DNA of 64,000 nucleotides from contig NZ_CVST01000040.1 of NCBI RefSeq assembly GCF_001180225.1, positions 1-64,000 on the forward strand, read 5' to 3'. Source of the DNA: Candidatus Pelagibacter communis. GTDB taxonomy: Bacteria > Pseudomonadota > Alphaproteobacteria > Pelagibacterales > Pelagibacteraceae. How positions within the stretch are numbered: the stretch's first letter is position 1; each line of letters begins with the position of its first letter. A program made the position numbers and the translations under genes. The notes below the pieces were generated by a model. The model worked only from the letters and a program-made list of their open reading frames with translations. It ran no database searches and was not told where the DNA came from. Shown in pieces: positions 41,730 through 63,318 of the stretch.

Positions 41730-41737
41730 TAATATTT

Positions 41738-44834: not shown

Positions 44835-47800
44835 TTATCTATTATTCCAAGATATAGGTGTAACCGTAACAGCGTTTCTACTACCTATTGCTTTAACAAT
44901 TCCAACTTCTTGGTTTAATGATGTATCTCCATAAACAAGCTTAACTTTTATTCTTCTATTTCCTGGAGTGAAATCACTAGTGTCTGTATTTTGATAGTAT
45001 ACTTTTTCTAGCTCATCTCTCCATTCCTCAATTGTAGGAACTGTATTTGAAGGTGGTGTTATTTTTAAAGGAGAATTGGATGATCCAATAAATGTAGCAG
45101 ATCTTGACCAACCAGAGGACAGAGCATTATCTCCTGTTGTATTAATTTTAACTGTATCCTCGTCACTTATAAAAATGCTGTTTTCACTTCCATCATTGAA
45201 AAATGATACTTCCGCTCTAATAGGACCCAATACTACATCTATGTTGTTACCATCTTCTTCAATAACTGCCCCTGTATAATCTCCAACACTACCCCCAAAA
45301 CGAACAATATATCCCTCAACATCTGAACTAGCATCACCTTCTCGTGTCATAATTTTTGTTGTGGATGAAGAGCTAGTTTGTTTAAATGTTAAATAATCAT
45401 TATCATCAGCTGCTGGATGACTGCTCATCCAGTTTGCTGAAGCGAATGGTCCAACACGTACACTTGATTCTGAGGAACGCAATGTTGTCTGGTTGCAACT
45501 GGCTTCATTTTCAAGATCTGCATCGGTTAAAGAAGTATTTATTCTCACGCGCCAAAACTCTTTATCTTTCCATGGTCCAGAAGTGTATCTCCAAAAACCA
45601 GATCTATATAAACCACCCTGGCACTCATCAGTACCGTTAACCCACGCTTCTTTATTGTTAGACACACCTAATTGTTTTAGAGCATCCAAATCTGCTGTGG
45701 TTGTTACATTAGCTAAGTATCCTTGAATTCCACATAAGTTTGCATAAGTTGCTTGAAAATTTGCTTGATTGTAATTTAATTCCTTAATATTCAGTTGATA
45801 GTAATGTTCAGCGTCAGTTGGTTTTTTGACATCTCCAATTAAAACTTCAATTTCTCTAGTTCCAGCTGTTGAAGCATCGTGCTCAAAATACATTGATTTA
45901 ATTAAATCTAAGTAATTTTGACAAGTAGCATCTCCAGTTATTGTAACCGTGGCTGTTTCGTTATTTGTGGCTGATAAACCTAAAGATGAAAGTTCATTAG
46001 TTCCAGCTACTAATTTATCACCACTTTGAGAACCTGTCTTTATCTTAACTATCGCTTTAGTTACCCTTCTATCATAAAGTTTAATTACTCTTTTTGTGGC
46101 AATTCTTATAATTGGATCTTCATCATTTTCCATACCGCCATATTCAACAATAATTCCTCTTATTGAGTAATCAGAATAAGAGTCGTCTGGACCATTATTC
46201 CAATTATGTAAATCATTCCAAGTTAATTGCTGACTTTCAGAAAAATGAGTTCCCAGCATGTGTACGCCATGTTCTGTTCCAGCAACATTGTTTGGTTCAT
46301 TTTCTCCACTCCAATTTCTAAATGGCATCCCGTCAACAAAAATTTCACCAATTTGTTGTCCTGATGGATTTGCTCTGGTCCAATCTGGTTCACCACGATT
46401 AGGTTGTCCAGACTTTGGCAAAGTAATCTCTTCTTGGTTTGCAGATGGATCCTCACTTGCCGTTCTATTTGGAGCGAAAGCTAAACCTCTAGCATTCCAT
46501 AACATTCCTTCTGGTCCAGTAACCCATCTCCAAAAAGGACACTCATCATCATCTACTGTGTCATCTACATTGCTCAAACTTGCATTAAAAAATATTCTAG
46601 TTCTATTTCCAGTTATTGCAGCATTTGTTTCTAAAGCGATTTTTGGATCTTTATAAAATAATTCTATACCTGATTGAGACTGAGGATTATTATTTGCACT
46701 TGAAATTGTTGTTGTTTCTTTTCTATAAAATTCATTTTGAATACCTTCTAGCTCCCATAATTGAGCTGTGCTCGCAGTATAATTTGAATAAGAACTCGTG
46801 TTTATATTTTCTCTAGTATCAAGATCTACAAGATTAAAGGTCGTATTTGAGACAACTCGAACCCTATAAAATCCCGTACTAAGTTGTGTCATCCCATCTA
46901 CGTTCATTTGATTAGATGAGCTGATATCTGCAATTTTTATAATGTCATCATGTACTAATCCATGATTTGAACTTGTGGTGATAAGGGCAGGATTTGCTTT
47001 AGATATTGATGAAATTGTTATCGCAGAAACTGTGCCTCTATATTTTTCAACAATATTTCTTAGATAGTTTACTGAAGAACCATAAGATTGGCCTCCTCTA
47101 TACATTGTAATTTCCTCAAAATCTCTTAAAGCTCTAAAATCTGCAGTAGCTTGAGCTCTATTATCCCTTTGCCTAAAACCACCACACTTATTTAAATCAG
47201 TATTTGAATTTTGATCATCTGAAGATGCAATTCCTCCCATCCATCCATTCCCAACTGCTTTATCAGTTACAATATCGTTTTCTGCTTCACTTGTTATAGT
47301 TGCCAGATATCCACTTTTTCCAAAGTAGTCTAGTTGTCTCGCAAGTGAGAAGCCTTCGTTCATTCTTCTATTTTTATCATTGAAGATATCATTATTAGCA
47401 TTTGAACTGGCTCTTCTTGGAAATTCATAAAATTCGTAAAAATGATTATAACCATCACGATGCTCGTTCACATGAAGAGGACCTAATGAAAATAAAATTG
47501 TTCTTTCACCTAATGAAGGAGTTGTAACATCCTCAGCATCTGGATCCGTTCCATCTGTACCATCTGTCCCTTCATCTGCAAATGGATTTTCACCATCCTC
47601 AGCATCTGGCTCTAATGTATTGTAATATTTTACAGACTCGAATGCCTGTTCCCATACATCTATATCATCACATGGTGCATCAGACTCGTCACCTGTGTAC
47701 ATAGTCCAAACTTGAGGATTAAAAATTGTAGGCGTTTCAGATATATCTAATGAAGATCCACCTGTAATTGTTGAGCCTGATGTATTTTTCCAAACTCTAT

Positions 47801-50546
47801 TATTATACCAAACAAAATCATTTGCATTATATGAGGTTGCGGGACTCCAATCATCTGGTTTTCCAGAGTGAACTAAAGTTAATACTCCAGTATAAGCATT
47901 CCAACCTAAATAATCATCAGAGGTATTATTATCTGATGCAGAAGTATTATCTGCAGTAATTGCTGAAGGATAATCTTCTGCACTTGTATCAATTTGCAAT
48001 ATATCTTCATAAACATCAGGATTATCATCAAGATCAAGATCATTTAAATCACCATCATTATTTCCATCAATAGCAGCAACATAAGTATCTGCCTCTATAG
48101 TAACACGCGCCATACAAAAGTTTGTATCGCTATAATTTACTTCATCAGCATCATCTGTATCACCATCTTGGTTAATATCGTGCTCTAAGCTAAAATGATC
48201 ATACCCTCCATATTCAACTACATATCCTGTAATACAATCTAGTCCTCCAGAACCACAGTTTGGAATTCTCCTCAAATCATTCCATTCTCCATCATCTCTC
48301 CCAGATCTATTAATTTCCATATCTGCATATGGTTCAGCAGCATTATTCGGTTCACCAGTTTGCCAATTAGTATAGGAAACGCTCATTCCCATTAACGGAC
48401 CTGACTCAGATTGCATGTTAGCTGCGTTACTAGTTGGATCTCGCCAATCTGAATTAGATAGCCATAAATAATGTTGGTCATCAGAACCATCTAATCTTGC
48501 TCCATAATACACAGCTCTAGTTTCTCCAGCCGCTACATGAAAAGGAGTTACACCTGTGCATCCTGAATCTGTACTGTTATCGCACATAACAGCATCTTTT
48601 ATAAATTCATTTTCAGCTGCACTTTCAATAGAGACCAAATAACCTCTCATACCACCACATGTTGATTGTTCGGCTCTTCTTTTTGCTTCCCACCAGTCAA
48701 TGGAGTCTCCGTTGTATCCAAGATCACTTGAAATATTTGGTGCTGTTGAAAAATATTTATAATAGTGACCGTAACTATTATCCCCAGATGAAGATTTAAA
48801 TTGAACTCCATCACATCCGCTACCTAAAACTTCTGACCAGTCATCCTCTTCAAAATCAACATTTGCACTTTTTCCATCATCTTTCTCTAAATAATAAAGT
48901 TTATCGTCATACTCTACACAATCACCTTCGTTGTAAGATGAAGAAGCACTAAAATCAGTAAAGGTAGTTGTGTTATTACATTGCTCCATCGCTCTTTTAT
49001 AAACATAGAAATTAGTATTAGTATTATCTTTAGTTTGAATATTGATATCTCCGTCAGTTCCTAATTGACCAACATAAGTATTTAAAGGTGTGATCAATGG
49101 TGTTCCTTCCTGACCTGTTAAGTCATTTAAATCTTCTGAAGTTAATGCAATTTTCCCATCACCAACATCTCCTTTTTGAAGAGGAGCGCTAACAATTAAT
49201 TCTAATGGTACTATTTGATTTTGTGGACCTTTTCCACAAGATAGAATTTTATAATATACAAGATCTTCTGCGGGCGGGACATTAAGTGTCGGGGCAGAAT
49301 CTGTTTCGGAAGTTACTTCGTAATCTACAAATTCAGTTTTCCACAAAGTCCCCTTGTTCCCTATTCCAAAAATTGTAGCATCATTTTTTCTATCTGCTCC
49401 CCTAGACGTGTTAGAGTCTTTAGCTATATTTCCAGATCCATCATTAAACTTGTAGTAAGAAACAAGACCAGGCTCAGATCCTGATAACCTTTTTCTATAA
49501 TTATTTGATATTTCTGTTGCAGAACGAGCAACATTCCATATTCTTAATTCAGCTATATTTCCTTTCCAAGGCAAACTTTGAATTTTTACATCACCAGTTT
49601 GATAGTTTGATGGTGAAAAACCCGCCAAACCTTCGCCTATAGCTAAAGGCCAAAAATCACCAGTTGGCAAAGTCTCTGTTTGATTAGTATAGTTTGATCC
49701 ACTGACAGCATCTAAATCAAAATCATACTCATCAGAATCGCTCAATACACCATTTTGATATATTTTTACGTTATTTGTGTCAGTTGCTGAAGTACCACCC
49801 TCCCAAACCCAGGCAATGTGAACCCACTTATCTTTTGTGTTGTTTGGATTTCCCACTGTTGCAGTTTCACTGGCAGCAACAGTATCTTCACCCATCCTAG
49901 GTGACCATTTATCATTTTTTACTTTAAAGGTTAAATCTTCAGGTCTCCCAAATTCAAAAGCATGCATTTCATAATTACTTGTGGATTGAGTATTTTTTAT
50001 CCACATCTCAATTGTAAATTTAGTTGTTGGAAAATCTTTAAAGTTCTCAACTAAAGCAAAAGATCTATCTGCATACGTTGTATTTTGATCGCTTCCACCT
50101 TTTGCACCTTCTGCTGAAAAATAAATTGACCTTATTGCATCAGAATGTCTTTGAACAAAAACTTCATAAGACATATCTTGAAATTTTGCTTCATCAGACC
50201 CTAAATCTGCTTCAATTCTTTTGGCAAAATAAACATTCTCATCAGGGTTAGTAAAACCATGTCTATTTAGGCATTTATTATCAGAATCCTCAATATTAAA
50301 GTCATTTTGGATATCTACCAAAGAAAAACTGTTGGAATTTAATTGATCTGAAATCCATTTCTGGCCTTCTTGCAAACCAGTTTCAGCAGCTAGATTTACC
50401 TGCTGCATAACTGAATTTCTTGAAACACTTTTTAAATCATTATCATAATAAAAAAACATTGCTCCTGTCATTATTGATAAAGCAGAAACAACAGCGATAA
50501 CAAAAACTAAAACAAATCCTTTTTCTTTTTGATTTTTTAAATCCAT
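44835..50546 (-). CDS. Giant PilX/GspK-type minor pilin with LamG and C-type-lectin-like domains
   Basis: The 1903-residue protein begins MDLKNQKEKG, then FVLVFVIAVVSALSIMTGAMFF, a prepilin-type helix that lacks Glu at +5, as in PilX and GspK tip subunits. Residues about 130-400 form a LamG/concanavalin-like domain (FTIEMWIKN, WVHIAWVWEGG, GNIAELRIWNVARS). C-type-lectin-like regions occupy about 585-775 (WWEAKRRAEQ, NWQTGEPNNA, DGEWNDL, GYVVEYGG), 1035-1475 (NWSGENEPNN, LTWNDL, IIVEYGG; it holds an FCCH-like insert at about 1175-1260) and 1580-1755. Between the first two are DINQDGDTDDAD calcium-type loops. It is the last gene of the pilus operon. Usual family length is 150-350. Confidence 0.88.
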   Translation of the reverse strand: MDLKNQKEKGFVLVFVIAVVSALSIMTGAMFFYYDNDLKSVSRNSVMQQVNLAAETGLQEGQKWISDQLNSNSFSLVDIQNDFNIEDSDNKCLNRHGFTNPDENVYFAKRIEADLGSDEAKFQDMSYEVFVQRHSDAIRSIYFSAEGAKGGSDQNTTYADRSFALVENFKDFPTTKFTIEMWIKNTQSTSNYEMHAFEFGRPEDLTFKVKNDKWSPRMGEDTVAASETATVGNPNNTKDKWVHIAWVWEGGTSATDTNNVKIYQNGVLSDSDEYDFDLDAVSGSNYTNQTETLPTGDFWPLAIGEGLAGFSPSNYQTGDVKIQSLPWKGNIAELRIWNVARSATEISNNYRKRLSGSEPGLVSYYKFNDGSGNIAKDSNTSRGADRKNDATIFGIGNKGTLWKTEFVDYEVTSETDSAPTLNVPPAEDLVYYKILSCGKGPQNQIVPLELIVSAPLQKGDVGDGKIALTSEDLNDLTGQEGTPLITPLNTYVGQLGTDGDINIQTKDNTNTNFYVYKRAMEQCNNTTTFTDFSASSSYNEGDCVEYDDKLYYLEKDDGKSANVDFEEDDWSEVLGSGCDGVQFKSSSGDNSYGHYYKYFSTAPNISSDLGYNGDSIDWWEAKRRAEQSTCGGMRGYLVSIESAAENEFIKDAVMCDNSTDSGCTGVTPFHVAAGETRAVYYGARLDGSDDQHYLWLSNSDWRDPTSNAANMQSESGPLMGMSVSYTNWQTGEPNNAAEPYADMEINRSGRDDGEWNDLRRIPNCGSGGLDCITGYVVEYGGYDHFSLEHDINQDGDTDDADEVNYSDTNFCMARVTIEADTYVAAIDGNNDGDLNDLDLDDNPDVYEDILQIDTSAEDYPSAITADNTSASDNNTSDDYLGWNAYTGVLTLVHSGKPDDWSPATSYNANDFVWYNNRVWKNTSGSTITGGSSLDISETPTIFNPQVWTMYTGDESDAPCDDIDVWEQAFESVKYYNTLEPDAEDGENPFADEGTDGTDGTDPDAEDVTTPSLGERTILFSLGPLHVNEHRDGYNHFYEFYEFPRRASSNANNDIFNDKNRRMNEGFSLARQLDYFGKSGYLATITSEAENDIVTDKAVGNGWMGGIASSDDQNSNTDLNKCGGFRQRDNRAQATADFRALRDFEEITMYRGGQSYGSSVNYLRNIVEKYRGTVSAITISSISKANPALITTSSNHGLVHDDIIKIADISSSNQMNVDGMTQLSTGFYRVRVVSNTTFNLVDLDTRENINTSSYSNYTASTAQLWELEGIQNEFYRKETTTISSANNNPQSQSGIELFYKDPKIALETNAAITGNRTRIFFNASLSNVDDTVDDDECPFWRWVTGPEGMLWNARGLAFAPNRTASEDPSANQEEITLPKSGQPNRGEPDWTRANPSGQQIGEIFVDGMPFRNWSGENEPNNVAGTEHGVHMLGTHFSESQQLTWNDLHNWNNGPDDSYSDYSIRGIIVEYGGMENDEDPIIRIATKRVIKLYDRRVTKAIVKIKTGSQSGDKLVAGTNELSSLGLSATNNETATVTITGDATCQNYLDLIKSMYFEHDASTAGTREIEVLIGDVKKPTDAEHYYQLNIKELNYNQANFQATYANLCGIQGYLANVTTTADLDALKQLGVSNNKEAWVNGTDECQGGLYRSGFWRYTSGPWKDKEFWRVRINTSLTDADLENEASCNQTTLRSSESSVRVGPFASANWMSSHPAADDNDYLTFKQTSSSSTTKIMTREGDASSDVEGYIVRFGGSVGDYTGAVIEEDGNNIDVVLGPIRAEVSFFNDGSENSIFISDEDTVKINTTGDNALSSGWSRSATFIGSSNSPLKITPPSNTVPTIEEWRDELEKVYYQNTDTSDFTPGNRRIKVKLVYGDTSLNQEVGIVKAIGSRNAVTVTPISWNNR

Positions 50547-50552
50547 AATTTA

Positions 50553-53500
50553 CTACGAGTCACTCCATAACTGCTGTCTATCTATATAGTTATGAGAAGT
50601 TTTACACCTATTTGAAAGCATTCCGATCGTAACATCTTCTCCATCTACAGTTACTGTTTTTTCAGCAATTTTAACAGACGGTTGGACAGATCTTTCTGGG
50701 AAATCAAAAGTAATAACCGCTTCATCTAAGTTACTTGTAAAAGGTACAGTTTGCCTTCTAAAAACTTTCTCACCTTCTTTTCCATAGATGTAGCCCTCTA
50801 TGGTCATTGCTGCCTTCGTTTTGTAAACAGAAATATTTTCCATTGCTGTTTCTGAACAATCTACTCTATCAACATGAACTTTTTCAGTTGTTGCAAGTTG
50901 ATTTCCTCTTAAGTCAGTTGCAATTATTCTAACTGCAAAATATTTTTTATTAGTTGGCAAATTTGCCCATCTAATATCTGAGTCATCATTTAAAACTAAA
51001 TAAAATTTATCATCTTTTTGATCTATTCTAAATCTTGTTCCATGATCGACATCTTTATCTGAGTCATCATTTGGTACTTCACCAAGATTAAATCTTACAA
51101 AATCATGGTCATCTGGCTCTTGTGCATCATCCCCAGTGGTTGTTACATATATTTGGCCAATGACTAAATCTTTATTTGCGTCTTCTGCCATATCAAAGTT
51201 GGTTTTATCCGAAATAGCAGTACCGTCTTCTTCTTTAAAAGAAACTCCAGATGGTGTTGTGTTTTCTATATTAAAACCAATATAAACTTTTTTAATATCA
51301 GAAATTCTTGTATTCGAAGTGTCCTCAGTTTGTACAGCATAATAAAAAGAGTCTTCGTGAGCTTCTCCATCATCAAAGCCGGTTGGTAAAGTATCATACT
51401 TAAAAGAGCCATCTGCATAAACATGCATTTTTCCTCCGGCAGTTGTGGTAACTGTTGCTCTAGCACCACTGTAGCTTGCTTTGTTTCTAGTATCATACAT
51501 TTCACCAATATTTGGTAATTCGCTATTGTTTGCCCATACTGCAGTTACTGCTCTCCAAGTTCCACTTAACCTACAATCCATGGTCCTATCAGAACCATCA
51601 ACACTTTGAGTTTTATAAGTCGCTGACTCAGCTAGGTCACCTGCTACAGTTCCTATTTCATCACAACTATTCGAATCTGAATTTGCATCAACTAATACTT
51701 CCAAGTGTTCTCCCTGTGGATCGTAAGATTTGCTTAAAAGTCCATAGATTCTATTTACAGTTTTATAGTCTTCATCCATATAGTAATATAAATTCTGTGC
51801 TTTAGGCATTGGTTTGTTGTCTGCAGTTTTTATGGGAACGTATCTTGGCAGTCTTGCAATCTGTATATTTGAATATCTATTGTCAGGTTGTGAAAATGAG
51901 ACTATTGCAACTGAACCTCTTTGAAATCTTTTAAAATTTGCTTTTTTTAAATCATCTCTGTCTTGACTTCTTCCGGGTAAAGTAACTTCCACTCCATCAT
52001 CAACTTCTGAAAATGGAAATGTAGATGAAGTATGATCATGCAAGGTTCCATCTGAATCAAAACGATAATCAAAAGCAGTAAATCTTTGGCTTAGCGTATT
52101 AGATAGATGTGGTTTATTTTCAATATTTGCTCTAAATTTATTTGGATGAAATGTCATGGTGATTGTGTTTTTTACACCTGTGTTTCTTCCCCAACTACAG
52201 TTCCATCTATGCGTAGCTCCAGGGTTGTAACTTATTCTAGAAAATGATCTGCCTCTGCTATTGCAATTTCTAAATCCAGTGTTGGCTGGTCGTGTGTTAT
52301 CAAATCTTGCAAACAATCTATCATAGCCTTTGGTATTATAGTTCATCTGTTGAGAACTACTTGGTGTTGACCAGCCTGTCAGATGACTCATATTTGCATG
52401 TGAAAGATAAGACCCCTCAGATCTTCCACAATTTCTTGTATGGCTAAATTCATAACCTTTAAAATGATGTAAGTGTATTGCTGATTGGTTGCCTCTAGCT
52501 CCCCACCAGGACCACAAATACATATCATAAGTCAAATCCGCTGGTTCTCCCCACCAACTATTTTTATCTGAGGCAGATAAACTATCCCACTCAGCCTTAT
52601 CAATTCCCCTAAGAGAGTTTTTTAACTTTGTGGCATCAAAATTACTATCTCCACTTAATCTTTCATAATCAATTCCAGCACATGCTCTTATTTTGCCATC
52701 AGGCCATTTTTTTTGAACTACACTGGGTCTTTGATATCCAGCTGCAAAACCTAACATATCATCATCCATCCATGCATTCATTTGTGGATTACAATCAGGA
52801 TAACCACCTGAACATATCATTCCTTTCAATACAAAAGAATCGTATTGATCAGTTGAAACTAAAAATGATGGTGATGCTAAATTTTGTTGGATATAAAAAG
52901 ATCTACCATCATCAGTTAAATCATAGTTTGGTCCTCCATTATAACTTGAAGAACCTCTACTCTCGTAGTTAGCTTTACCATAAGTAAACCCTTTTGGTTC
53001 CCAGGTATGAAGATTAATATCTGAAAATTGTGGAGCTTCAAATTTCATAACTCTTATGGTGTAGTCTTTGTAAGCTTCATTTTGGTCAACCCATCCCTCA
53101 CCATCACAATTAGTATCTAGATCGGCTTTTACTCTTATATTAAAATCTTGATAACCATCAGAATTAAAAGAATAACCTGTGTCAGTTTTTGTTAAATCTC
53201 CTGAAATTTTAAGTGTTCCATTCCACTCACCATCATCTGCTACATTGTCATTATCAAGATCATCATAACCAGAGGTTACTGATAAACCTGGAGGTATAGT
53301 TGTATCTGTACTAACTGTTACTAATTTTAATCTCATTTCACTATGAGTAATATCTGGGATACCTGTCACCTCTGGTGGTTTTTCAGATCTAAAGATTATA
53401 TCGTCATAAGTTCTATTTAAAGCTGTTGTGCCAACTTTTTCACCTTGATGTAAAATTATAACATCATCATTAGTTACAAAATTTGATAACTGAATATCTC

Positions 53501-54245
53501 TAGTTAAATTATTTGCACATTGAGCTTTTAGACTACCTGTAAATTGTATTACAGGTGTCCTATTTTCATGTAAATCTTCCTCATCATAAACATAAAATGT
53601 AGATCCTCCAAAATTAAGATTTCTCATATAAGCTGAGGCAGTATAAGTTTCGGATACTTTTTCATCGACAGACTCTAATTCTACTTCAAAGTCAATATGC
53701 TTACTTCTAAGTCTAATTTTAAATTCCTCAAAAAATTGAGCCACAGGCATCCAATCTACATCAACTGTGGTATTAGAATCACTTTCGTCGCAATTAGTTG
53801 TATTCCAAATTTTCTTTTTTAATACTGTCTTTTCAGTTTCTGGTGAGTAGGGTATTTTTAATTCGTATTTAATTAATTTTCTTCGAATAGTGCCATCGTT
53901 TTCTTCTGTATCAAAACAAAATAATACTTTTTCTCCATACTCTGTGTCATCAGATACTTCAGTTTCATCAGCATCATCATTCAATACTTTAACTGGTTCT
54001 TGAACTTCACCAAGAGTGCTATCAGGATGTTTGTAACCAGCCATTTTGCTATCAAATTGCAACATATGCAGTGCAAATCGAGCCTCTTGCTTCATGTTGT
54101 TGTGATTAATTTGTCTAATAAATGTCCCCTGAAAATTATTATAAATTGTATAAGTTGCTCCCATAACAATAGTTGAAACAACTACTGCAACTAATGCTTC
54201 CGTAAGAGATAATCCTTTTTGAGTAATAAATTTTTTTAAATTCAT
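50553..54245 (-). CDS. Giant PilW/GspJ-type minor pilin
   Basis: The 1230-residue protein begins MNLKKFITQKG, then LSLTEALVAVVVSTIVMGATY with Glu at +5, and QEARFALHMLQFDSKMAGY, the PilW/GspJ signature after the helix. Residues 240-420 hold beta-sandwich, cadherin-like sequence (ITHSEMRLKLVTVSTD, GLSVTSGYDDLDND). A Trp-, His- and Gly-rich central domain covers about 440-800. A VCBS-like stretch (ARATVTTTAGGKMHVYADGSFKYD) lies near 920-985, followed by a second cadherin-like domain with calcium-type acidic clusters (about 1000-1120). The usual PilW length is 250-350, so nearly 900 residues are extra. It begins one base after the PilV-like gene stop. Confidence 0.87.
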   Translation of the reverse strand: MNLKKFITQKGLSLTEALVAVVVSTIVMGATYTIYNNFQGTFIRQINHNNMKQEARFALHMLQFDSKMAGYKHPDSTLGEVQEPVKVLNDDADETEVSDDTEYGEKVLFCFDTEENDGTIRRKLIKYELKIPYSPETEKTVLKKKIWNTTNCDESDSNTTVDVDWMPVAQFFEEFKIRLRSKHIDFEVELESVDEKVSETYTASAYMRNLNFGGSTFYVYDEEDLHENRTPVIQFTGSLKAQCANNLTRDIQLSNFVTNDDVIILHQGEKVGTTALNRTYDDIIFRSEKPPEVTGIPDITHSEMRLKLVTVSTDTTIPPGLSVTSGYDDLDNDNVADDGEWNGTLKISGDLTKTDTGYSFNSDGYQDFNIRVKADLDTNCDGEGWVDQNEAYKDYTIRVMKFEAPQFSDINLHTWEPKGFTYGKANYESRGSSSYNGGPNYDLTDDGRSFYIQQNLASPSFLVSTDQYDSFVLKGMICSGGYPDCNPQMNAWMDDDMLGFAAGYQRPSVVQKKWPDGKIRACAGIDYERLSGDSNFDATKLKNSLRGIDKAEWDSLSASDKNSWWGEPADLTYDMYLWSWWGARGNQSAIHLHHFKGYEFSHTRNCGRSEGSYLSHANMSHLTGWSTPSSSQQMNYNTKGYDRLFARFDNTRPANTGFRNCNSRGRSFSRISYNPGATHRWNCSWGRNTGVKNTITMTFHPNKFRANIENKPHLSNTLSQRFTAFDYRFDSDGTLHDHTSSTFPFSEVDDGVEVTLPGRSQDRDDLKKANFKRFQRGSVAIVSFSQPDNRYSNIQIARLPRYVPIKTADNKPMPKAQNLYYYMDEDYKTVNRIYGLLSKSYDPQGEHLEVLVDANSDSNSCDEIGTVAGDLAESATYKTQSVDGSDRTMDCRLSGTWRAVTAVWANNSELPNIGEMYDTRNKASYSGARATVTTTAGGKMHVYADGSFKYDTLPTGFDDGEAHEDSFYYAVQTEDTSNTRISDIKKVYIGFNIENTTPSGVSFKEEDGTAISDKTNFDMAEDANKDLVIGQIYVTTTGDDAQEPDDHDFVRFNLGEVPNDDSDKDVDHGTRFRIDQKDDKFYLVLNDDSDIRWANLPTNKKYFAVRIIATDLRGNQLATTEKVHVDRVDCSETAMENISVYKTKAAMTIEGYIYGKEGEKVFRRQTVPFTSNLDEAVITFDFPERSVQPSVKIAEKTVTVDGEDVTIGMLSNRCKTSHNYIDRQQLWSDS

Positions 54246-55643: not shown

Positions 55644-56933
55644 CTATCCTACAGCTTGACCAATGCTGAAGATTGGCATGTACAAAGCTATCATAAGAAG
55701 CCCAATAATTGCGCCAATTATTACGATCATTAATGGTTCTATGATTGAGGATAGAGCAGCAACAACACCATCAAATTCTTCTTCATAATAATTTGCAATT
55801 GATTGGAACATTTCTTCCATATTTCCTGTTCGTTCACCAACAGCTGTTAACTGGGAAAGAGCTGGAGGAAATATGTGCTCTTCTTTTTGGAGTAGCGCAG
55901 ACAAAGTTTGACCAGTTACTATCTGCCTCCCAATTCTTTCTAATGCATAAATAAAGACAAGATTTGTTGTTACAGATTTAGAAATTTTTATTGTGTCTAT
56001 GATGCTTACCCCAGCTCTTGTTAAATTAGCCATAATCATACACATCCTAGATACTGTTGCTTTAACGATTAAATCGCCAAACAATGGGAACTTTAAAAAC
56101 CTTTTATGCATTACATGTCTAAAACCTTCTATATTTTTATACATAAAGTTATATGTAACCCTAATAATTATGATAATTCCCAAAATTTTCATTATATTTG
56201 TAGGATTAGCAATAAATCTACTTGCATTAACAATAACTAAAGTTGCTGCAGGGAGTTGAACACCCATGGAACCATACATTTTCTCAAAAACAGGAACAAC
56301 TTTCCACAACATGAAAATTGTAATCACTGTTGCAACTGTCAAAAGCATTACTGGATAAAATAATGCACTTTTTATCCCTTGTTTAATTTTTGCATTTTTC
56401 TCTAATAATTCTACAAGTTTAATTAAAAACTCATCTAACTTACCACTGGCCTCACCTGCAGAGATCATATTCAAATAAATATTATCAAAAATTTTAGGAT
56501 GCTTAGCAAATGCATCCGTTAAATTCATACCGCCATTTAAATCTTTAATTATAGCGTGAGCAGTCATTTTCATTTTCATGTGTACAGTTTGATCTCTGAT
56601 CATCATTATAGACTCGAGAATAGGCAGACCTGCTTTGATCATGGTTGATACTTTTTTTGTAAACTGCAGTAATTCCTTTGGCGGAACTTTGGCCCAAGGT
56701 CCAAAATTTAAATAAATATTTCCTTTTGAAATAATAATAGGGGCATTACTTATAGGAACATCATCTAAAGACGGTGGACCTTTTGTTTCAGATTTACCGT
56801 TACCTTTTTTAATCGAGGTAACAATTATTTTTTTTTTTCTAAGTTCTACTGCAGCACTTTTTGGATCAGATGCAGAAATTACACCATTTATTTTTTTTCC
56901 AGCTTGAACACCAGCATATTGAAATGTTGCCAT
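55644..56933 (-). CDS. pilC: Type IV pilus inner-membrane platform protein PilC/GspF
   Basis: PilC couples the PilB and PilT ATPases to pilin insertion and removal. The 429-residue protein has the N-terminal domain (MATFQYAGVQAGKKINGVI, SAAVELRKKKI) and two copies of the T2SSF domain (VSTMIKAGLPILESI ... MISAGEASGKLDEFLIKL; and MANLTRAGVSIIDTIKIS ... LTAVGERTGNMEEMFQSIANYYEEEF), with three membrane helices (about 190-215, 240-265, and 395-425). Length is slightly above the usual 400. It follows pilB after three bases. Confidence 0.95.
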   Translation of the reverse strand: MATFQYAGVQAGKKINGVISASDPKSAAVELRKKKIIVTSIKKGNGKSETKGPPSLDDVPISNAPIIISKGNIYLNFGPWAKVPPKELLQFTKKVSTMIKAGLPILESIMMIRDQTVHMKMKMTAHAIIKDLNGGMNLTDAFAKHPKIFDNIYLNMISAGEASGKLDEFLIKLVELLEKNAKIKQGIKSALFYPVMLLTVATVITIFMLWKVVPVFEKMYGSMGVQLPAATLVIVNASRFIANPTNIMKILGIIIIIRVTYNFMYKNIEGFRHVMHKRFLKFPLFGDLIVKATVSRMCMIMANLTRAGVSIIDTIKISKSVTTNLVFIYALERIGRQIVTGQTLSALLQKEEHIFPPALSQLTAVGERTGNMEEMFQSIANYYEEEFDGVVAALSSIIEPLMIVIIGAIIGLLMIALYMPIFSIGQAVG

Positions 56934-56936
56934 AAA

Positions 56937-58688
56937 CTAAACTACTAAAATTCTAGAATATTCTTCAACAGATAATATACCTTTTTTAATAAAATTTCTG
57001 CCAATAACTTGCATAGTTTTGAAACCATCCTTAATTGCAACTTCAAGCATTTCATCTCCTCTAGCATCTCTTAATATCGCTGCTTCTAAGTTGGGAGTTT
57101 TTTTTAACACTTCGTAAATTCCTTGTCTTCCTTTATATCCAGTGTTATTACATTCTGCACAACCTGCACCCATTTTGGGGGTAAAAGTATTTAACTCTTC
57201 TTCTTTAAAACCAAGTTGTAATAAACTTTCTCTTGTTGCCTTGTCATCATCCACGGTACAAGAAGAACAATTCTTTCTTGCTAACCTTTGAGCAACAATT
57301 AAACTTAAAGCTGATGCAACCATGAAACTTGGAACACCCATATTTACTAATCTGACAACTGTAGACACTGCATCATTTGTATGAAGTGTACTTAATAACA
57401 AGTGTCCAGTTAAAGCGGCTTTAATTGCAATATCTACGGTAGATTTATCTCTTATCTCTCCAACTAGAATTACCTCTGGGTCTTGTCTTAAGAAAGATTT
57501 TAATATTGCCTCAAATGTTAAACCAATTTCATTGTTAGCTTGAATTTGACCTACTCCTTTTAAATAAAATTCAACTGGATCCTCAGCTGTCATTATATTT
57601 GTTCCAGGATTATTTATTTTTTTAATACATCCATAAAGAGTTGTACTTTTACCACTACCTGTTGGGCCTGTAACCAAAACCATCCCTTGGGGAGCGGTTA
57701 TAGCTGTGACCAAGTTATCGTAATCTTCTTTATCAAGACCGATTTGCTCTAAACCAAGATCTGGTCCAGCAGCAAGTAAACGCATAACAACTCTTTCACC
57801 TTCTTTAGCTGGAATAACTGAAAATCTAACATCAATATCAACATCATCTTCATTTTTTGGTTGTGGATTTTTAAATTGAAGTTTTCCATCTTGTGGCAAC
57901 CTTTTTTCAGAAATATCACAACCCGACATAATCTTTAGTCTTGTCACTATTGCATTATAATTCTCCATCAAAAATTGTTTAAATTGTAATTGTTCTTGAA
58001 GGACACCATCTTTTCTAAATCTTACTCTTGCCTCACCTCTTCTAAAAATTTCAATATGGATATCACTCGTACCACTAAAAAAAGACTCGTTTAAAAGTTT
58101 ATCAACAAACTCAACTACAGCATTTTCACCTTGCGTAATTTTTACATTCGGGACCTTCACATTTAAATTTGGTTTTGAAAGTGATGATTTTTGTGCTTGA
58201 TTATTTGTTGAGTTTGCAGACTCTTGTGTTGCTTCAATTACAGATTTAAACTTTAGAGCTTGATCCAAATTTGATGGTTTAGCAACATATAGCTCTACAT
58301 TACATCCTGTCATGCTTTTAATCTTGCCTGCCAATGTAGATTTGGTTGGATCAAATAAAGCAATTTTCAAAATTCTCCCATTTAATTCGAATGGAAGCAT
58401 TTCATTTTCCATTATAAAATCTTTTGGAAGTTTTTTTACAGCTTCTTTTTTAATATTTTGCTCAGTTAGAATAGTTTTACGTAAAGCATAATTTCTTGAA
58501 ACTGCTGAAACAATATCATCTTCACTTACTAATTTGTCATCAATTAAATACTCTAGAACTCCAAGGGGAACCTTGCCATTACTATCGTATTTTTTTTTAG
58601 CCTCATTAAAATTTGCTTCAGATAATTTTCCACTAGTTTTTAAAAGGTTTGAAATCTTAATACTTATTTCAGGATTTATTGAAGGCAT
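56937..58688 (-). CDS. pilB: Type IV pilus extension ATPase PilB/GspE
   Basis: PilB powers pilus assembly. The 583-residue protein has an N-terminal N1/N2 domain region (about 1-160), and the secretion ATPase core: Asp box region FSGTSDIHIEIFRRGEARVRFR, Walker A GPTGSGKSTT at residues 341-350, Walker B/Asp-Glu stretch DPEVILVGEIRD, His box TALTGHLLLSTLHTNDA, and the zinc-binding tetracysteine CSSC...CAECNNTGYKGRQGIYE (about 475-515). It is complete. It starts 27 bases after the secretin gene stop. The retraction ATPase pilT is encoded on the other strand at 63456. Confidence 0.96.
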   Translation of the reverse strand: MPSINPEISIKISNLLKTSGKLSEANFNEAKKKYDSNGKVPLGVLEYLIDDKLVSEDDIVSAVSRNYALRKTILTEQNIKKEAVKKLPKDFIMENEMLPFELNGRILKIALFDPTKSTLAGKIKSMTGCNVELYVAKPSNLDQALKFKSVIEATQESANSTNNQAQKSSLSKPNLNVKVPNVKITQGENAVVEFVDKLLNESFFSGTSDIHIEIFRRGEARVRFRKDGVLQEQLQFKQFLMENYNAIVTRLKIMSGCDISEKRLPQDGKLQFKNPQPKNEDDVDIDVRFSVIPAKEGERVVMRLLAAGPDLGLEQIGLDKEDYDNLVTAITAPQGMVLVTGPTGSGKSTTLYGCIKKINNPGTNIMTAEDPVEFYLKGVGQIQANNEIGLTFEAILKSFLRQDPEVILVGEIRDKSTVDIAIKAALTGHLLLSTLHTNDAVSTVVRLVNMGVPSFMVASALSLIVAQRLARKNCSSCTVDDDKATRESLLQLGFKEEELNTFTPKMGAGCAECNNTGYKGRQGIYEVLKKTPNLEAAILRDARGDEMLEVAIKDGFKTMQVIGRNFIKKGILSVEEYSRILVV

Positions 58689-58715: not shown

Positions 58716-60332
58716 TTATACAACATTTGCACTTAGGAATATTAACAGTTGAGTTTTATCGTCTTTATCAGTTGTTTGTCTAAAAAATGCTCCTAGTAAT
58801 GGAATTTTTGAGAAGAACGGCACATAAGTTTCACTGTTTTCTCTAGTATTTTTATAAACACCTCCAAGTACAGCTACATCACCAGCATTAATTTGGACTA
58901 TAGATGTAAGCGATTCCTCGTTCGTTACAACGTCATCACCTGAGCTTTCACCTGGTGCATCATTTGCAAGTGATAATTCAATTTTTACTCTACTTTCTCC
59001 AACAATTTCTGGTTTCACCGTGATGCTTAAATTTTGTGGAATTTCTACTGTAGATCCTGCAGCATCACCTGAAGCTGGAATTACTTTTACTAAAGTTGTA
59101 CCTTGAGTAAGAGTTGCTTCTTCACCGTCCATTGCAAATAGTTTTGGATTTGAAACTGTTTCTGTATTAGAGTCTTTCACTGATGCAGTGATTACAGCTT
59201 TGATCTTTGTCATTCCTATATTTCCAAGCAAAAATGCTCCTCCTGCCAAACTGACTGCATCTGATAAATCTGCATTAGATATAGCCTCAGGATTCGTATC
59301 TGCTACAGGTGTTATAGAAGTTGTGTTTCCTGGGTTAGTATCAATCCCTGAAAAGGTTATTCGGTCTTTTCCATTTGCAGTTGCCGCAGCATTTAATGCA
59401 TCTATGTTTGCACTAAAGTTTTTATTAAAGCCATCAGTTGCATTAACAATATAAGCCTCGATCATTACTTGTTTTTTTTCCAAGTCAATTTTGTTTAGAA
59501 TGTTCTCTGCCTGATTTAATTGCGCATATGTGCCTGTGATTATAATTTGATTATTTTTTTCATCATCTACCATAGTAAAACCTTCGGTCTCACCCATAAC
59601 TTCCCCAAGAGATTCTACTAAATCTGTTGAACTTTGATAAAAGACTTTAAAGATCTCTGTAACCAAAGGTTCTGAACCATCTCCTTCGTTTGAAACTGAG
59701 CCTCCAATATCTAAGGAAGCTAAATTATTATTTTCCTCTATTGTATTGTCTATTTTGGCTTTTTCTAATTCAGCAAAAAATTCTTTTGTATGAACTCTTA
59801 ACAGACCAGAGTCTTCATCAACAGTCATAATTAAACTATTAATATCTAAAATGGCATAAACAGCAGAACCCCATTTTATATTTTCAAAGTCTATAGTTAT
59901 TTCTCCATCAACTTCATTACCTATGATGATATTTCTCTGAACCAATCCAGCAAGTAATTTTAAAGCTGATCTTATATTCATATTATTAAGCTTTAAACTT
60001 ACTTCGGTATCTTCTAATTTTTTAATCTTTAAATTTCTATCAATTAGTTTAAGTGATTTTTTTTCTAGCGCCTTACCCTCTGTTAAAGAAATTCTTCTTA
60101 CTAACTTTTCCTCTTTTTTATTTTTATTTAAAATATCATTTGAATCTTGATTAAATTGTTCTGCAGTTTGTCTAAAATTTTCAGCGCTTGCTTTTACATT
60201 GAAAGACTCAATTTCTTGAACAGCTCCTTTATCCTTTTGATCATAAGCCATTTTAGGCCTTTTTGAACTACTACAACTTACCAGTAATATAGACAGTGTT
60301 AATACTAGTAATAATTTAATAAATTTTGTCAT
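58716..60332 (-). CDS. pilQ: Type IV pilus secretin, MshL/PilQ type lipoprotein
   Basis: The 538-residue protein forms the outer-membrane channel for the pilus. It has a lipoprotein signal with lipobox LLVSC (C20), an STN domain (SLKLNNMNIRSALKLLAGLVQRNIIIG, about 110-160), an N1-type domain with YAQLNQAENILNKIDLEKKQVMIEAYIV, and a secretin core (ETVSNPKLFAMDGEEATLTQGTT, VIPASGD, VEIPQNLSITVKPEIVGESRVKIELSL, DVAVLGGVYKN, VPFFSKIPLLGAFFRQ). The short form with a lipobox and only one N-domain is that of MshL rather than classic PilQ. It is start-stop overlapped with the LysM-PilP gene. Confidence 0.94.
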   Translation of the reverse strand: MTKFIKLLLVLTLSILLVSCSSSKRPKMAYDQKDKGAVQEIESFNVKASAENFRQTAEQFNQDSNDILNKNKKEEKLVRRISLTEGKALEKKSLKLIDRNLKIKKLEDTEVSLKLNNMNIRSALKLLAGLVQRNIIIGNEVDGEITIDFENIKWGSAVYAILDINSLIMTVDEDSGLLRVHTKEFFAELEKAKIDNTIEENNNLASLDIGGSVSNEGDGSEPLVTEIFKVFYQSSTDLVESLGEVMGETEGFTMVDDEKNNQIIITGTYAQLNQAENILNKIDLEKKQVMIEAYIVNATDGFNKNFSANIDALNAAATANGKDRITFSGIDTNPGNTTSITPVADTNPEAISNADLSDAVSLAGGAFLLGNIGMTKIKAVITASVKDSNTETVSNPKLFAMDGEEATLTQGTTLVKVIPASGDAAGSTVEIPQNLSITVKPEIVGESRVKIELSLANDAPGESSGDDVVTNEESLTSIVQINAGDVAVLGGVYKNTRENSETYVPFFSKIPLLGAFFRQTTDKDDKTQLLIFLSANVV

Positions 60333-61552
60333 TAATTGAATAAATCCTCAACATTAGTTACTGTTTCACTGTCGTTATCATTGTTATCGTTTTCATTATT
60401 CTCTGTTTGATTTTCAATATTTGTATCATCATTGTTCACATCATCATTAATTATATCTTCATTATTTGATTGTGGTAAAGATGCAATTGCCATTCCTACT
60501 ATTGGAGTATTAATTAAAAATTCATATTCAATATTGTCCTCTAAAACAATCATTTTATTTTTTTCAATTGAGACTATCACGCCATCTCTGTTACCTATTC
60601 TATCTCCCTCTCTAACCATAAATTGACTGTTACTTATTTCAATTATTGCAAGATTTTTTCTATTTATTTTAAAATCGTTAATACTCTTCTTGTCTAAGTT
60701 TTCATAAGAAATATTCTCATTAGTATAAATTGGAATTTTTACTAATTGATTTTCATTTAATATTACTGTGTTTTTATCAAAAGCATTAAATTCTATTAAT
60801 TCGCTTATTTCTCTTTCATATCTTTTGCCAATATCAGCTATTGTTTCATTCTCATTTGTTACATGAATAAAGAAAGGTAGTAATAATTTATCACCAATTA
60901 AAATAATATTTTCATCTTCTAAATTATTGTAAGAAGCAAGTTGTGTTGCGCTTAAATTATATCTCTCAGCAATTGTTTTTAAGTTTTGACCTTCTTTTAC
61001 GATATGAAATCTATTTGGTATAACTACTTTATCACCAACTACTAATTTTCTTGATCCAGGATAAATTGCATTTGCAACTTCGATTTCTCTTAAAGAAAAT
61101 CCATATCTAAAAGCAATTTTCTCAATTGTATCGTTTTCCGATACGGTATGAGTTGTAGGTGTTTTTGCTCTATCGATTTTTTTTACTTTAGCTCTTTGAA
61201 ATTGATGAGCAGACTCTTTACTTAGCGCAACACCTTTGAGCAAATAATCTTTTAGAGAATATGCGATGATCGGATCAATATTCAAAACTGTAACAATTTC
61301 TGTGTCCTGGGGTTCGTTCTCGACAACTTCATTTACCTGGTCCGTCTTCTCAATAATTTCTTCTGCTAATTCTATTTCAGGAGCTTCTTCCTCTATTGCT
61401 AAATCCGTCTCAGTTTCGACGATATCTTCAACTTTTATCTCTACGACTTCTGGCTCTCTTACAATACCAATTTCATTTGTAAATGGATCACTGCTGAAAG
61501 AATTGCCGAAATACAATACAAAGATGGTTGTTAATATAAATCTTAGCAACAT
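60332..61552 (-). CDS. LysM-repeat protein with PilP-like C-terminus
   Basis: The 406-residue protein has an N-terminal hydrophobic signal (about 1-20), an acidic linker, a PilP-like stretch SLKDYLLKGVALS (99-111), three LysM domains (about 135-179, 182-226 and 229-274) and a C-terminal beta domain (about 300-346) with REGDRIGNRDGVIVSIEKNKMIVLED, which matches the PilP pattern G-D-x-x-G-x-x-x-G-x-(I/V)-x-x-I. PilP bridges the inner-membrane PilN/PilO complex to the secretin. Position between pilM-N and the secretin gene is where pilP lies in other species. LysM domains would bind peptidoglycan. Confidence 0.78.
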   Translation of the reverse strand: MLLRFILTTIFVLYFGNSFSSDPFTNEIGIVREPEVVEIKVEDIVETETDLAIEEEAPEIELAEEIIEKTDQVNEVVENEPQDTEIVTVLNIDPIIAYSLKDYLLKGVALSKESAHQFQRAKVKKIDRAKTPTTHTVSENDTIEKIAFRYGFSLREIEVANAIYPGSRKLVVGDKVVIPNRFHIVKEGQNLKTIAERYNLSATQLASYNNLEDENIILIGDKLLLPFFIHVTNENETIADIGKRYEREISELIEFNAFDKNTVILNENQLVKIPIYTNENISYENLDKKSINDFKINRKNLAIIEISNSQFMVREGDRIGNRDGVIVSIEKNKMIVLEDNIEYEFLINTPIVGMAIASLPQSNNEDIINDDVNNDDTNIENQTENNENDNNDNDSETVTNVEDLFN

Positions 61553-63318
61553 TATTTTTTACCTGCCTCTAATAAATCTGAAACTATTGTTTCATCGTCA
61601 AAAACTTCATCAGCTAGAGGTTTTAAAGATAATCTTGAGTTAAATTTTTTTGTTATTTTTTCTTTTGGCAAATCTTCTTCTTTTAGATCAGGTTGTCCAG
61701 CAACTGTGTAAAGAGCTATTCGATCTTCTTTAGAAAATTCAACTAATGCCTCAATTTTACTATCATTAACAACTTCATTTTCTGAAAAACTATTCATCAT
61801 ATTTACCACAGCTTGGTCGTTCATAGCTACACCAGAAAATAAAATATTATGTTTTTCTTGTATTCCAAAACTAGTCAATCTTATATTTTTTGGAACTATT
61901 TGATCTAAACTTGCATAAAGATTTGCAGTTGTTTTTAAATTTGATCCAAAGGCTGCTGCAATTCTTTTATCTTCATTAATGCTATCGATTTTTGCATTAT
62001 AACCTTGCAAAAGATTATTTTTACTTTCAAGATCTTCCTCTAAAATTTTAGTGGCAGCTAATTTAGATGAATTGTTCATTAATTTAAAAATTTTAAATGG
62101 AACAATGTGTCCAATAATACCCAAAACAAAAATCATCGAAATCATTAAACAAAAATTACCTAAAGATTTTGATCTTCTGTTAGTTTTTACCTGATCAAAA
62201 TTAGATAAAAGATTTACTGAAATTATTTCGTTAGTTTCTAGATTAAAAGAATTTAATTTTCTTGATGCTATACCAATTGCTTCCGATGCAAGAGATTTAT
62301 TGCTAAGTGAATCTATATATTTTTTTGCACTATCAGAAATTTCAGCGGAGTCTTCTGGATTATAAAGCTTAACAACAACATCTCCCAATTGTCGCTCAAT
62401 TCCTTTTGAAACATTTTTAATTTTTGACTTATCTGAAATTACTGTGATGATGTTTATAGGATCAAATTCATACTTTGTTTCATACTCAACTAAATACTGT
62501 TTAATTTGAGAACCAAGTCTTTCAAAAATTTCATCCCAAAATTCTGTTTCAACACTCTCAACTTCCTCAACTGTATCAAGCAATACTTGATCTGCTTCAA
62601 TAATATTTAATTCTGAATACTGAAAACCTTTATTGGAACAAATAGTAATACTTTTCTCATCTTTTGAATAATTGAAAATAACATTTGGAGTTTCAAAACC
62701 TTCTTTCCCAAGAAGTATTCCTTGAGAGTTAACATGAGCGAAAGGTGCAAGATCAATTACCACAGGATTATAACCTGCAAGCCTAAATATATTCGAATAA
62801 GTTTCCACAAACTTTATCTCCATAGCAACTAAAACTACATCCATTACACCAAGCTCTTCATTTGTATTCATAACAGAATAACTTGTTTCAAATTCATCTA
62901 AATTTTCAGGTGTTTCATCAAACTGATCCCAAAATCCACCTAAAGCAGTTGCTTCCCTTAAACTTTCTTCATCCATAATTGGAATTTGTAAATTATAAAT
63001 TTGTGCTTTGGATGTATCTAAAGAAACGGCAATGTCTTTTGTTTTAGTCTTAATAGAGTCTAATGCATTTTTTACTTGATCACTTAAATATGTTGTTGCG
63101 GATAAAAAATCTTGGTCTTCTCCAATTCCTGCTATTTGTTGATTAGAGAAATTATCAATTTTACAAACACCTTTTTTGTATGAAATTTCTGCAGCTTGAA
63201 TAAATTTATCTCTAAAAACTACACCTATTACTTTTTCTTTTTTTGAGTGATTTTTTCCTATTAATTTAATGATAGGAGCAAAAGCTTTTGCAATAGGAGG
63301 TCCAATTTTATCAATCAT
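61552..63318 (-). CDS. PilM-PilN fusion protein
   Basis: The 588-residue protein combines two pilus alignment proteins. Residues about 25-370 resemble PilM, the actin-like cytoplasmic ATPase (VIGVVFRDKFIQAAEIS, IAVSLDTSKAQIYNLQIP, VVIDLAPFAHVNS, INIITVISDKSKIKNVSKGIE). At residues about 387-408 is one membrane helix (CLMISMIFVLGIIGHIVPF), and the periplasmic remainder has the PilN pattern (LLQGYNAKIDSINEDKRIAAAFG, LYASLDQIVPKNIRLTSFGIQEKHNILFSGVA, FSEN). In most bacteria pilM and pilN are separate genes in which the PilN N-terminus (about ten residues) docks in PilM. It starts the nine-gene pilus operon. Confidence 0.8.
   Translation of the reverse strand: MIDKIGPPIAKAFAPIIKLIGKNHSKKEKVIGVVFRDKFIQAAEISYKKGVCKIDNFSNQQIAGIGEDQDFLSATTYLSDQVKNALDSIKTKTKDIAVSLDTSKAQIYNLQIPIMDEESLREATALGGFWDQFDETPENLDEFETSYSVMNTNEELGVMDVVLVAMEIKFVETYSNIFRLAGYNPVVIDLAPFAHVNSQGILLGKEGFETPNVIFNYSKDEKSITICSNKGFQYSELNIIEADQVLLDTVEEVESVETEFWDEIFERLGSQIKQYLVEYETKYEFDPINIITVISDKSKIKNVSKGIERQLGDVVVKLYNPEDSAEISDSAKKYIDSLSNKSLASEAIGIASRKLNSFNLETNEIISVNLLSNFDQVKTNRRSKSLGNFCLMISMIFVLGIIGHIVPFKIFKLMNNSSKLAATKILEEDLESKNNLLQGYNAKIDSINEDKRIAAAFGSNLKTTANLYASLDQIVPKNIRLTSFGIQEKHNILFSGVAMNDQAVVNMMNSFSENEVVNDSKIEALVEFSKEDRIALYTVAGQPDLKEEDLPKEKITKKFNSRLSLKPLADEVFDDETIVSDLLEAGKK

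Follow-up and report, generated by a model that had tools for sequence, protein, structure and literature searches.

The closest described counterparts of the system considered here are pilins with carbohydrate-binding modules. A survey of modular pilins that started from IPR012902 comprises more than 1,200 proteins in 264 architectures, with PF13385 (LamG) among the carbohydrate-binding modules given and 860 residues in the most extreme multi-domain case (PMC8179133). PilC of Streptococcus sanguinis is a pilin with a ConA-type (LamG/ConA) module, which binds glycans and has been placed at the pilus tip by modelling; in diderm model species, PilC/PilY1 is the tip effector (PMC9934059). The same paper discusses the rule that the K subunit, being without Glu at position +5, caps the tip. 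In SAR11, it has yet to be settled what pili do and no attachment has been observed so far, and in coastal Pelagibacteraceae a large putative autotransporter adhesin adjoins type IV pilus genes (PMC12636525). We describe here a type IV pilus operon of Candidatus Pelagibacter communis, found in a stretch of 64,000 nucleotides (contig NZ_CVST01000040.1, positions 1 to 64,000; the whole stretch is referred to as the window). The minor pilins in its PilW/GspJ and PilX/GspK positions, J and K below, are 1230 and 1903 residues long.

The giant K pilin

The operon encodes, in this order, a PilM/PilN-like fusion, a LysM protein, a PilQ-type secretin, PilB, PilC/GspF and prepilins of 191, 271, 1230 and 1903 residues, which fill the H, I, J and K slots. 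By sequence, the 1903-residue protein is the K-slot pilin of a type IV pilus operon, homologous to other SAR11 K pilins of up to 307 residues, and it is a modular pilin that joins a pilin moiety and functional domains foreign to type IV pili in one polypeptide. An earlier note on this DNA had placed it in the K slot as a prepilin without Glu+5, and that assignment holds. The N-terminus (KEKG/FVLVF) is of the prepilin type with Phe instead of Glu at +5, and its sequence predicts a helix that PilD could process. Glu is absent from this position in all seven rows of an alignment of the window protein and its homologues; among the four prepilins of the operon it is present in H, I and J, and K alone is without it. 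A hidden Markov model (HMM) of canonical SAR11 K pilins matched residues 5-73 with an E value of 1.4e-9 (14 targets), compared with 0.0015 for the best among 280 shuffled proteins. This model was built from 28, and the corresponding J model from 29, of 33 canonical loci, the rest lacking K or having been missed by the name pattern. Pfam PilX (PF13681) scored over its cut-off in the one canonical SAR11 K pilin scanned and gave no match in the Pfam scan of the giant K itself. Positions 196-220 of the 224 in the canonical K profile align to residues 430-452 of the giant, after LamG and in collinear order. Because this alignment has no significance of its own (-0.1 bits), the insertion of LamG inside the pilin head is only inferred.

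The size is as unusual for the slot as the earlier note had proposed: K open reading frames (ORFs) have 192-307 residues in 32 of the 33 loci of PilY1-type pili (the 192-residue one, in L076, is without its N-terminus, and the 33rd locus, L087, stops before K), compared with 1903 residues here. The frame is uninterrupted in four other genomes, at 1729-1909 residues, and three of these are single-contig assemblies that are 99-100% complete. A reading as separate genes or as a misassembly was rejected, since five genomes, the three single-contig ones among them, have it as one ORF; in all relatives read, the N-terminal and lectin parts lie in one gene. The ratio of non-synonymous to synonymous substitution (dN/dS, NG86) over K is 0.088, 0.141, 0.129 and 0.308 against genomes G130, G012, G448 and G145, respectively, with dS above 1.3 for the last three and not for G130. 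We conclude that the 1903-residue ORF is genuine and under purifying selection. Over the J tail, dN/dS is 0.05-0.10 against G130, G012 and G448.

Comparison of K with that of G130 reveals that most regions are 93-99% identical and that residues ~75-420, which span the pilin head and LamG, are mostly 52-80% identical. Over LamG, G130 is nearer to G012 (81%) than to the window's own genome (70%; G000 in the comparisons). To judge from these identities, pilin head and LamG look as if they had been exchanged.

Modules of the giant pilin

LamG, CBM5/12 and C-type-lectin-like domains (CTLDs) with EPN and WND motifs are typical carbohydrate-binding modules; CBM5/12 is of the chitin/cellulose type, and EPN and WND are the calcium- and glycan-binding motifs of C-type lectins. 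The multi-module, lectin-type architecture that the earlier note had read from the giant is recovered as LamG, CBM5/12, CTLD1 and CTLD2 (Table 1), and its LamG assignment is confirmed by Pfam. Domains were counted in seven homologues at E<=0.5, the members with Lectin_C or CBM matches presumably being the five giants. The CBM5/12 match (PF02839), which the note had missed, scores 34.1 bits against a cut-off of 26.2 and spans positions 2-29 of 44.

In the window protein, the Lectin_C match of CTLD1 stays under the Pfam cut-off, at 0.0029; five of the seven homologues match, the best at 1.9e-5. Compared with the PDB, the CTLD1 profile matched 13 chains (E 0.007-0.1), which from their names we take to be proteins of the C-type-lectin fold. 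An HMM seeded with CTLD1 was iterated on 812 ORFs of pilus loci, with a shuffled copy as control. Its first round gave 3.0e-4 for the C-terminal half of CTLD2 (9.7e-5 in G448), 0.099 for the N-terminal half and 1.7 for CTLD3, the best shuffled sequence scoring 0.18. In the second round, with the C-terminal half of CTLD2 added to the model and neither the N-terminal half nor CTLD3 included, the N-terminal half scored 4.1e-7 and CTLD3 4.5e-4 (3.8e-5 in G012), against 0.58 for the best shuffled sequence. CTLD2 is split by ~230 residues (1034-1136 and 1369-1474). Profile comparison relates it to CTLD1 with 88% probability over the N-terminal half only, and no lectin match was found for it in the PDB. 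EPN and WND are present in both CTLD1 and CTLD2 of all five giants; one EPN also occurs in the 621-residue K pilins described below, outside any CTLD. We regard LamG and two EPN/WND C-type-lectin regions in K as supported by these comparisons. PF00059 stayed below threshold in the window's own genome and gave no signal in the control genomes either, and this search is hence uninformative.

The claim of three CTLDs with motifs is thus upheld for CTLD1 and CTLD2, and the third is weak, degenerate and without the motifs: the CTLD3-like region has neither a Pfam nor a PDB match, its profile alignment to CTLD1 is weak (hhalign probability 5%), and the case for a third, degenerate CTLD is a weak one. 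The FCCH-like insert noted earlier does show a faint likeness to PF16190 (0.0038), which is below the Pfam cut-off and present in two of seven members. Residues 1174-1249 match phrog_584, 'major tail protein', at 6.7e-6, and this stretch of the CTLD2 insert is shorter in G145. A phage origin of the K modules was considered and rejected, the only match being to the LamG region in one phage (two records) and CTLD1 having no phage match. A repeat relation between residues 1475-1580 and the C-terminal domain was likewise dropped, with no significant similarity found.

Table 1. Coordinates in the window of the giant K pilin, its regions, and other pilus genes
Feature	Positions	Strand	Evidence
Giant K-slot minor pilin (PilX/GspK position), 1903 residues	44835..50546	-	ORF; closes the H-I-J-K set; K-family HMM residues 5-73; one ORF in 5 genomes
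K: prepilin leader with predicted cleavage behind G10, hydrophobic helix lacking Glu+5 and beginning of pilin head, residues 1-142	50121..50546	-	sequence, alignments
K: LamG / ConA-like domain, residues 143-410 (Pfam 166-347), inferred insertion in pilin head	49317..50120	-	PF13385 (Laminin_G_3) 3.1e-13, over cut-off; 7/7 homologues at E<=0.5
K: residues 427-455, possible final strand of pilin head, in collinear order with the C-terminal end of canonical K pilins	49182..49268	-	HMM alignment, not significant alone
K: possible first CBM5/12-like copy, ~residues 531-570	48837..48956	-	2 CBM_5_12 stretches in the Pfam count (E<=0.5); position by eye
K: CTLD1, residues 591-785, EPNN at 732, WND at 755	48192..48776	-	Lectin_C, profile and PDB matches
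K: CBM5/12 module, residues 896-950 (Pfam 900-923)	47697..47861	-	PF02839 2.8e-8, over cut-off; 5/7 homologues
K: CTLD2 N-terminal half, residues 1034-1136	47139..47447	-	HMM 4.1e-7 round 2; hhalign to CTLD1 88%
K: insert within CTLD2, residues 1137-1368, E1_FCCH / phage-tail-like stretch ~1174-1257	46443..47138	-	PF16190 0.0038, below cut-off; phrog_584 6.7e-6
K: CTLD2 C-terminal half, residues 1369-1474, EPNN at 1417, WND at 1443	46125..46442	-	HMM 3.0e-4 round 1
K: region between CTLD2 and CTLD3-like region, residues 1475-1580	45807..46124	-	alignment
K: CTLD3-like region, residues 1581-1755, without EPN/WND	45282..45806	-	HMM 4.5e-4 (3.8e-5 in G012) before own inclusion; no Pfam match
K: C-terminal domain, residues 1756-1903, common to 621-residue K of HIMB114	44838..45281	-	alignment, 35-36% identity
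Giant J-slot minor pilin (PilW/GspJ position), 1230 residues: pilin 1-212 and ~1,020-residue tail	50553..54245	-	Glu+5 prepilin motif; J-family HMM 1.4e-12 (best shuffled 0.0081)
I-slot minor pilin, 271 residues	54247..55062	-	position, prepilin motif
H-slot minor pilin, 191 residues	55062..55637	-	N_methyl over cut-off; GspH model below its cut-off
PilC/GspF inner-membrane platform	55644..56933	-	T2SSF 3.8e-53
PilB extension ATPase	56937..58688	-	T2SSE 2.5e-113; type_IV_pilB 1.2e-163, below that model's cut-off
PilQ-type secretin	58716..60332	-	Secretin 1.5e-30; IV_pilus_PilQ 6.7e-60, below that model's cut-off
LysM-domain protein	60332..61552	-	LysM 7.9e-22
PilM/PilN-like fusion	61552..63318	-	PilM_2 7e-6, PilN 1.1e-4, pilM 2e-12, all below cut-offs
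PilT retraction ATPase, divergent from operon	63492..64000, on to 64442 of contig	+	TIGR01420 2.6e-123
Prepilin peptidase (PilD)	26870..27625	+	PF01478 6.6e-20
Candidate major pilin (KGFSLVELLVVVAIIG)	19754..20341	-	TIGR02532 1.4e-8
Second candidate major pilin	13378..14025	-	TIGR02532 1.3e-8

Convergent with the giant K gene, at positions 39735-44832 of the plus strand, lie genes for a protein whose C-terminus is, to the eye, of the PP2C type, for a TPR-like protein (below cut-off) and for one with a FecR domain, and this set adjoins K in G130 and G145 too. The minus strand at 31934-38098 encodes a 2054-residue protein with 13 PATR-repeat stretches, probably an autotransporter-type adhesin, which may belong with the autotransporter adhesin of coastal SAR11 (PMC12636525).

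PilY1-type and PilY1-less pili in SAR11

The earlier note had described a single giant pilin; what we find instead is a pair, giant J and giant K, in a pilus without a detected PilY1. PilY1 (PF05567) was not found in any of the five giant genomes, of which three are single-contig and 99-100% complete, the window's own (a 1.02 Mb assembly) is 74% complete and G145 is 69% complete. In a census of 82 genomes of the order, with PilY1 identified by PF05567, PilY1 occurs in 36 (32 over cut-off), PilT in 41 and both in 33; three genomes have PilY1 without a PilT match. All 33 loci with PilT and PilY1 were read. Their H-K ORFs have at most 394 residues (the contig of L087 stops after I), and their PilY1 has 1,360-1,707 residues where the ORF is uncut. 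PilT without PilY1 occurs in eight genomes: four giants (one of them the window's own, incomplete), two of the HIMB114 genus, G458 and G250. In G250 the contig ends beside PilT; all seven of the others, which are readable, have a minor pilin of at least 615 residues. G145, outside the census, carries giant J and K, with no PilY1 found. In G452 (L110:4428-13314), two more PilY1-like proteins lie in tandem away from the pilus operon, that genome having three PF05567 matches, one below cut-off.

Giant K is present in four of 399 genomes of the genus (E<=1e-20, own included), and the fifth, G448 of the same genus, came from an order sample of 397. Profile matches among named relatives are AG-901-M14 and CC_bin40, both Pelagibacteraceae (SAG/MAG), and HIMB114, a SAR11 strain, which is of the same family as the window's genome and of another genus; these matches support a SAR11 origin. 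The K pilins of G447 and HIMB114 have 621 residues, align to the pilin, LamG and C-terminal domain and are without the lectin array; their J pilins, of 210 residues, align to the pilin part of giant J. In G458, of a third genus (L070:5841-9792), I has 703 residues, J 615 with a CTLD (1.7e-5 in round 1) and K 219, and PilY1 was not found. Outside the order, a search of 385 class genomes, SAR11 aside, gave for giant K only LamG-region matches in five genomes and a match of profile positions 1501-1643 in a 408-residue frame (G1008). CTLDs of the same type also occur in ORFs that do not look like pilins, at L032:10440-12674, L033:5675-7909, L034:6299-8485, L035:4934-7063 and L071:1-1401. The one in L032, which was scanned, ends in an autotransporter beta-domain, and that in L071 directly adjoins PilY1.

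With the PilT of HIMB114, that of the window shares 87% identity, with that of G458 73% and with six from PilY1-type SAR11 52-54%, and a PilT tree separates PilY1-less from PilY1-type SAR11 pili. In the window genome and G130, the neighbours of PilT are orf221, ELM1, TrxB, aspAT, UvrB and UvrC, an order also found next to the PilY1-type pilus of G036 and G451, with identities of 90-92% for TrxB, 86-97% for UvrB and only 59-78% for ELM1. The contig of G145 ends beside the pilus operon. By these sequence comparisons, a cassette common to another genus occupies, in part of the giant-type genomes, the place of a different pilus in other Pelagibacter.

Proposed function and comparison with known systems

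We consider it rather probable that the operon makes a retractile, PilY1-less type IV pilus whose tip minor pilins, J and K, have the adhesive head as part of themselves. K would cap the pilus tip with J beneath it, and their tails would hang out like the large PilY1 adhesin of other pili. Ligands of the K modules would be glycans or polymers of the chitin kind, carried by particles, algae or zooplankton, and retraction by PilT would draw the cell to the surface. That J and K carry the head and PilT retracts is proposed by analogy with S. sanguinis PilC and the PilC/PilY1 tip effector. In principle, size need not stand in the way of such a head, given that the PilY1-type SAR11 pili come with a PilY1 of 1,360-1,707 residues. 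Tentatively, and as a possibility we would put at somewhat less than an even chance, SAR11 may have two exchangeable type IV pilus cassettes, one tipped with PilY1 and one PilY1-less, with a head that arose as domains were inserted repeatedly into tip minor pilins (J and K for the window lineage, K for HIMB114, I and J for the third genus); giant J and K would then form a multi-module head of ~3,100 residues, grasping glycans or chitin and letting some supposedly planktonic SAR11 attach to particles.

Several points weigh against these proposals. The J tail has no significant Pfam match, no PDB match and no recognisable domain, and EPN and WND are absent from the CTLD3-like region of the giants. 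Proteins, too, can be ligands of LamG and CTLD folds, and such folds can have a structural role instead. AlphaFold gave no structural confirmation: the folds are unproven because the models reached a predicted local distance difference test (pLDDT) score of only 29.2 for residues 12-1000 (4 rows) and 28.4 for residues 1000-1903 (2 rows). PF05567 scores some SAR11 PilY1 poorly, with none over cut-off in four of the 36 matching genomes, so that a divergent PilY1 could escape notice. The PilY1-less forms included in the PilT tree (window, G447, G449 and G458) make up one clade; they therefore represent few independent events and amount to no statistical proof. Finally, the genes from orf221 to UvrC were not found near the pilus of G012 (~37 kb to the right, 20 kb to the left), G448 (~17 kb to the right) or HIMB114 (~39 kb to the right). 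Because the pilus surroundings of G012 and G448 are without them in the stretches read, a single chromosomal site for all giants was rejected and holds for the window genome and G130 only; the giant-type cassette stands in at least two chromosomal contexts (loci L143 and L147-L149 of G012 and G448, as against the window and G130).

Other explanations have to be set beside the adhesive pilus. Transformation competence and DNA uptake are among the pilus functions given in PMC12636525, and the pilus might be mainly a competence pilus, with J and K tails that bind or filter DNA or are passive and with sugar binding not their function. The presence of PilT and the absence of a lectin signature from the J tail fit such a role. 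We nevertheless find it unlikely: K holds LamG, CBM5/12 and EPN/WND CTLDs, whose usual ligands are carbohydrates, and PilY1-type Pelagibacter pili have no such tails, so that these would not be needed for DNA uptake. Far less probable still is a type II secretion-like pseudopilus, in which the K modules act in secretion and not on a surface pilus. There are matches to the GspE, GspH and GspF models, the last scoring above the PilC models, and a secretin and a LysM protein are present; however, PilQ and PilB models outscore GspD and GspE, a PilM-like protein is encoded and a PilT-family ATPase is found in all five giant genomes. By its gene content, and PilT in particular, the system is a type IV pilus rather than a type II secretion system.

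It might also be recognition by phages or grazers, and not one ligand, that shapes the modules as an exchangeable surface, with domains swapped to alter the exposed pilus tip. This would account for the divergence from G130 over residues ~75-420 (52-80% compared with 93-99%), for a G130 LamG nearer to that of G012, for the phage-tail-type stretch in the CTLD2 insert and for the occurrence of the cassette in two genera and at least two chromosomal contexts. Against it speak the retention of EPN and WND in all five giants and the low dN/dS along the whole of K in comparison with the three closest giants, and the divergence is confined to head and LamG between the window genome and G130; we rate it an improbable main explanation.

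SAR11 is the most abundant bacterial group of the ocean. Genomes of 1.3-1.4 Mb retain ~9.4 kb for two tip pilins under purifying selection, one of them with modules of the sugar-binding type, and cells with such tip pilins may therefore be able to grip surfaces. If the modules do bind, part of SAR11 could hold particles or algae, and models of carbon cycling would have to treat the group differently. The adhesive head would be, if the proposal is true, a second way to equip a type IV pilus, in minor pilins rather than in PilY1, with steps that could be tested through natural intermediates (short, 621 residues, 1.7-1.9 thousand residues) in isolates, HIMB114 among them.

A CTLD-bearing or giant K-slot pilin, or such a system in SAR11, was not found described in the literature searched, subscription papers lying mostly outside it. 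The earlier statement that no pilin with this domain set is described stands in so far as a CTLD-bearing pilin is concerned, and does not stand for LamG, pilins with which have been published (PMC8179133, PMC9934059). The CTLD-bearing giant K is an addition to the known modular pilins. It shares with those of PMC8179133 the grafting of functional modules, PF13385 included, onto a pilin, and differs from them in that CTLD is not named among the 15 commonest architectures and that the most extreme multi-domain case there has 860 residues. S. sanguinis PilC is likewise a minor pilin with a ConA-like lectin module, in a monoderm system that has no PilY1 (PMC9934059); it is a 52.8 kDa protein with Glu5 and one lectin module, whereas the K of the window, from a diderm, has 1903 residues, no Glu5, LamG, CBM5/12 and CTLDs, and is accompanied by an H-I-J-K set with a giant J. 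The adhesin of coastal Pelagibacteraceae (PMC12636525) resembles it as a large putative adhesin near SAR11 type IV pilus genes and differs in being an autotransporter and not a pilin. PilY1-tipped pili of the type IVa class, those of PilY1-type SAR11 and of Myxococcus (PMC7541494), likewise combine a large tip protein and minor pilins with retraction by PilT; in these the head is a separate PilY1, whereas in the window system it is apparently built into J and K.

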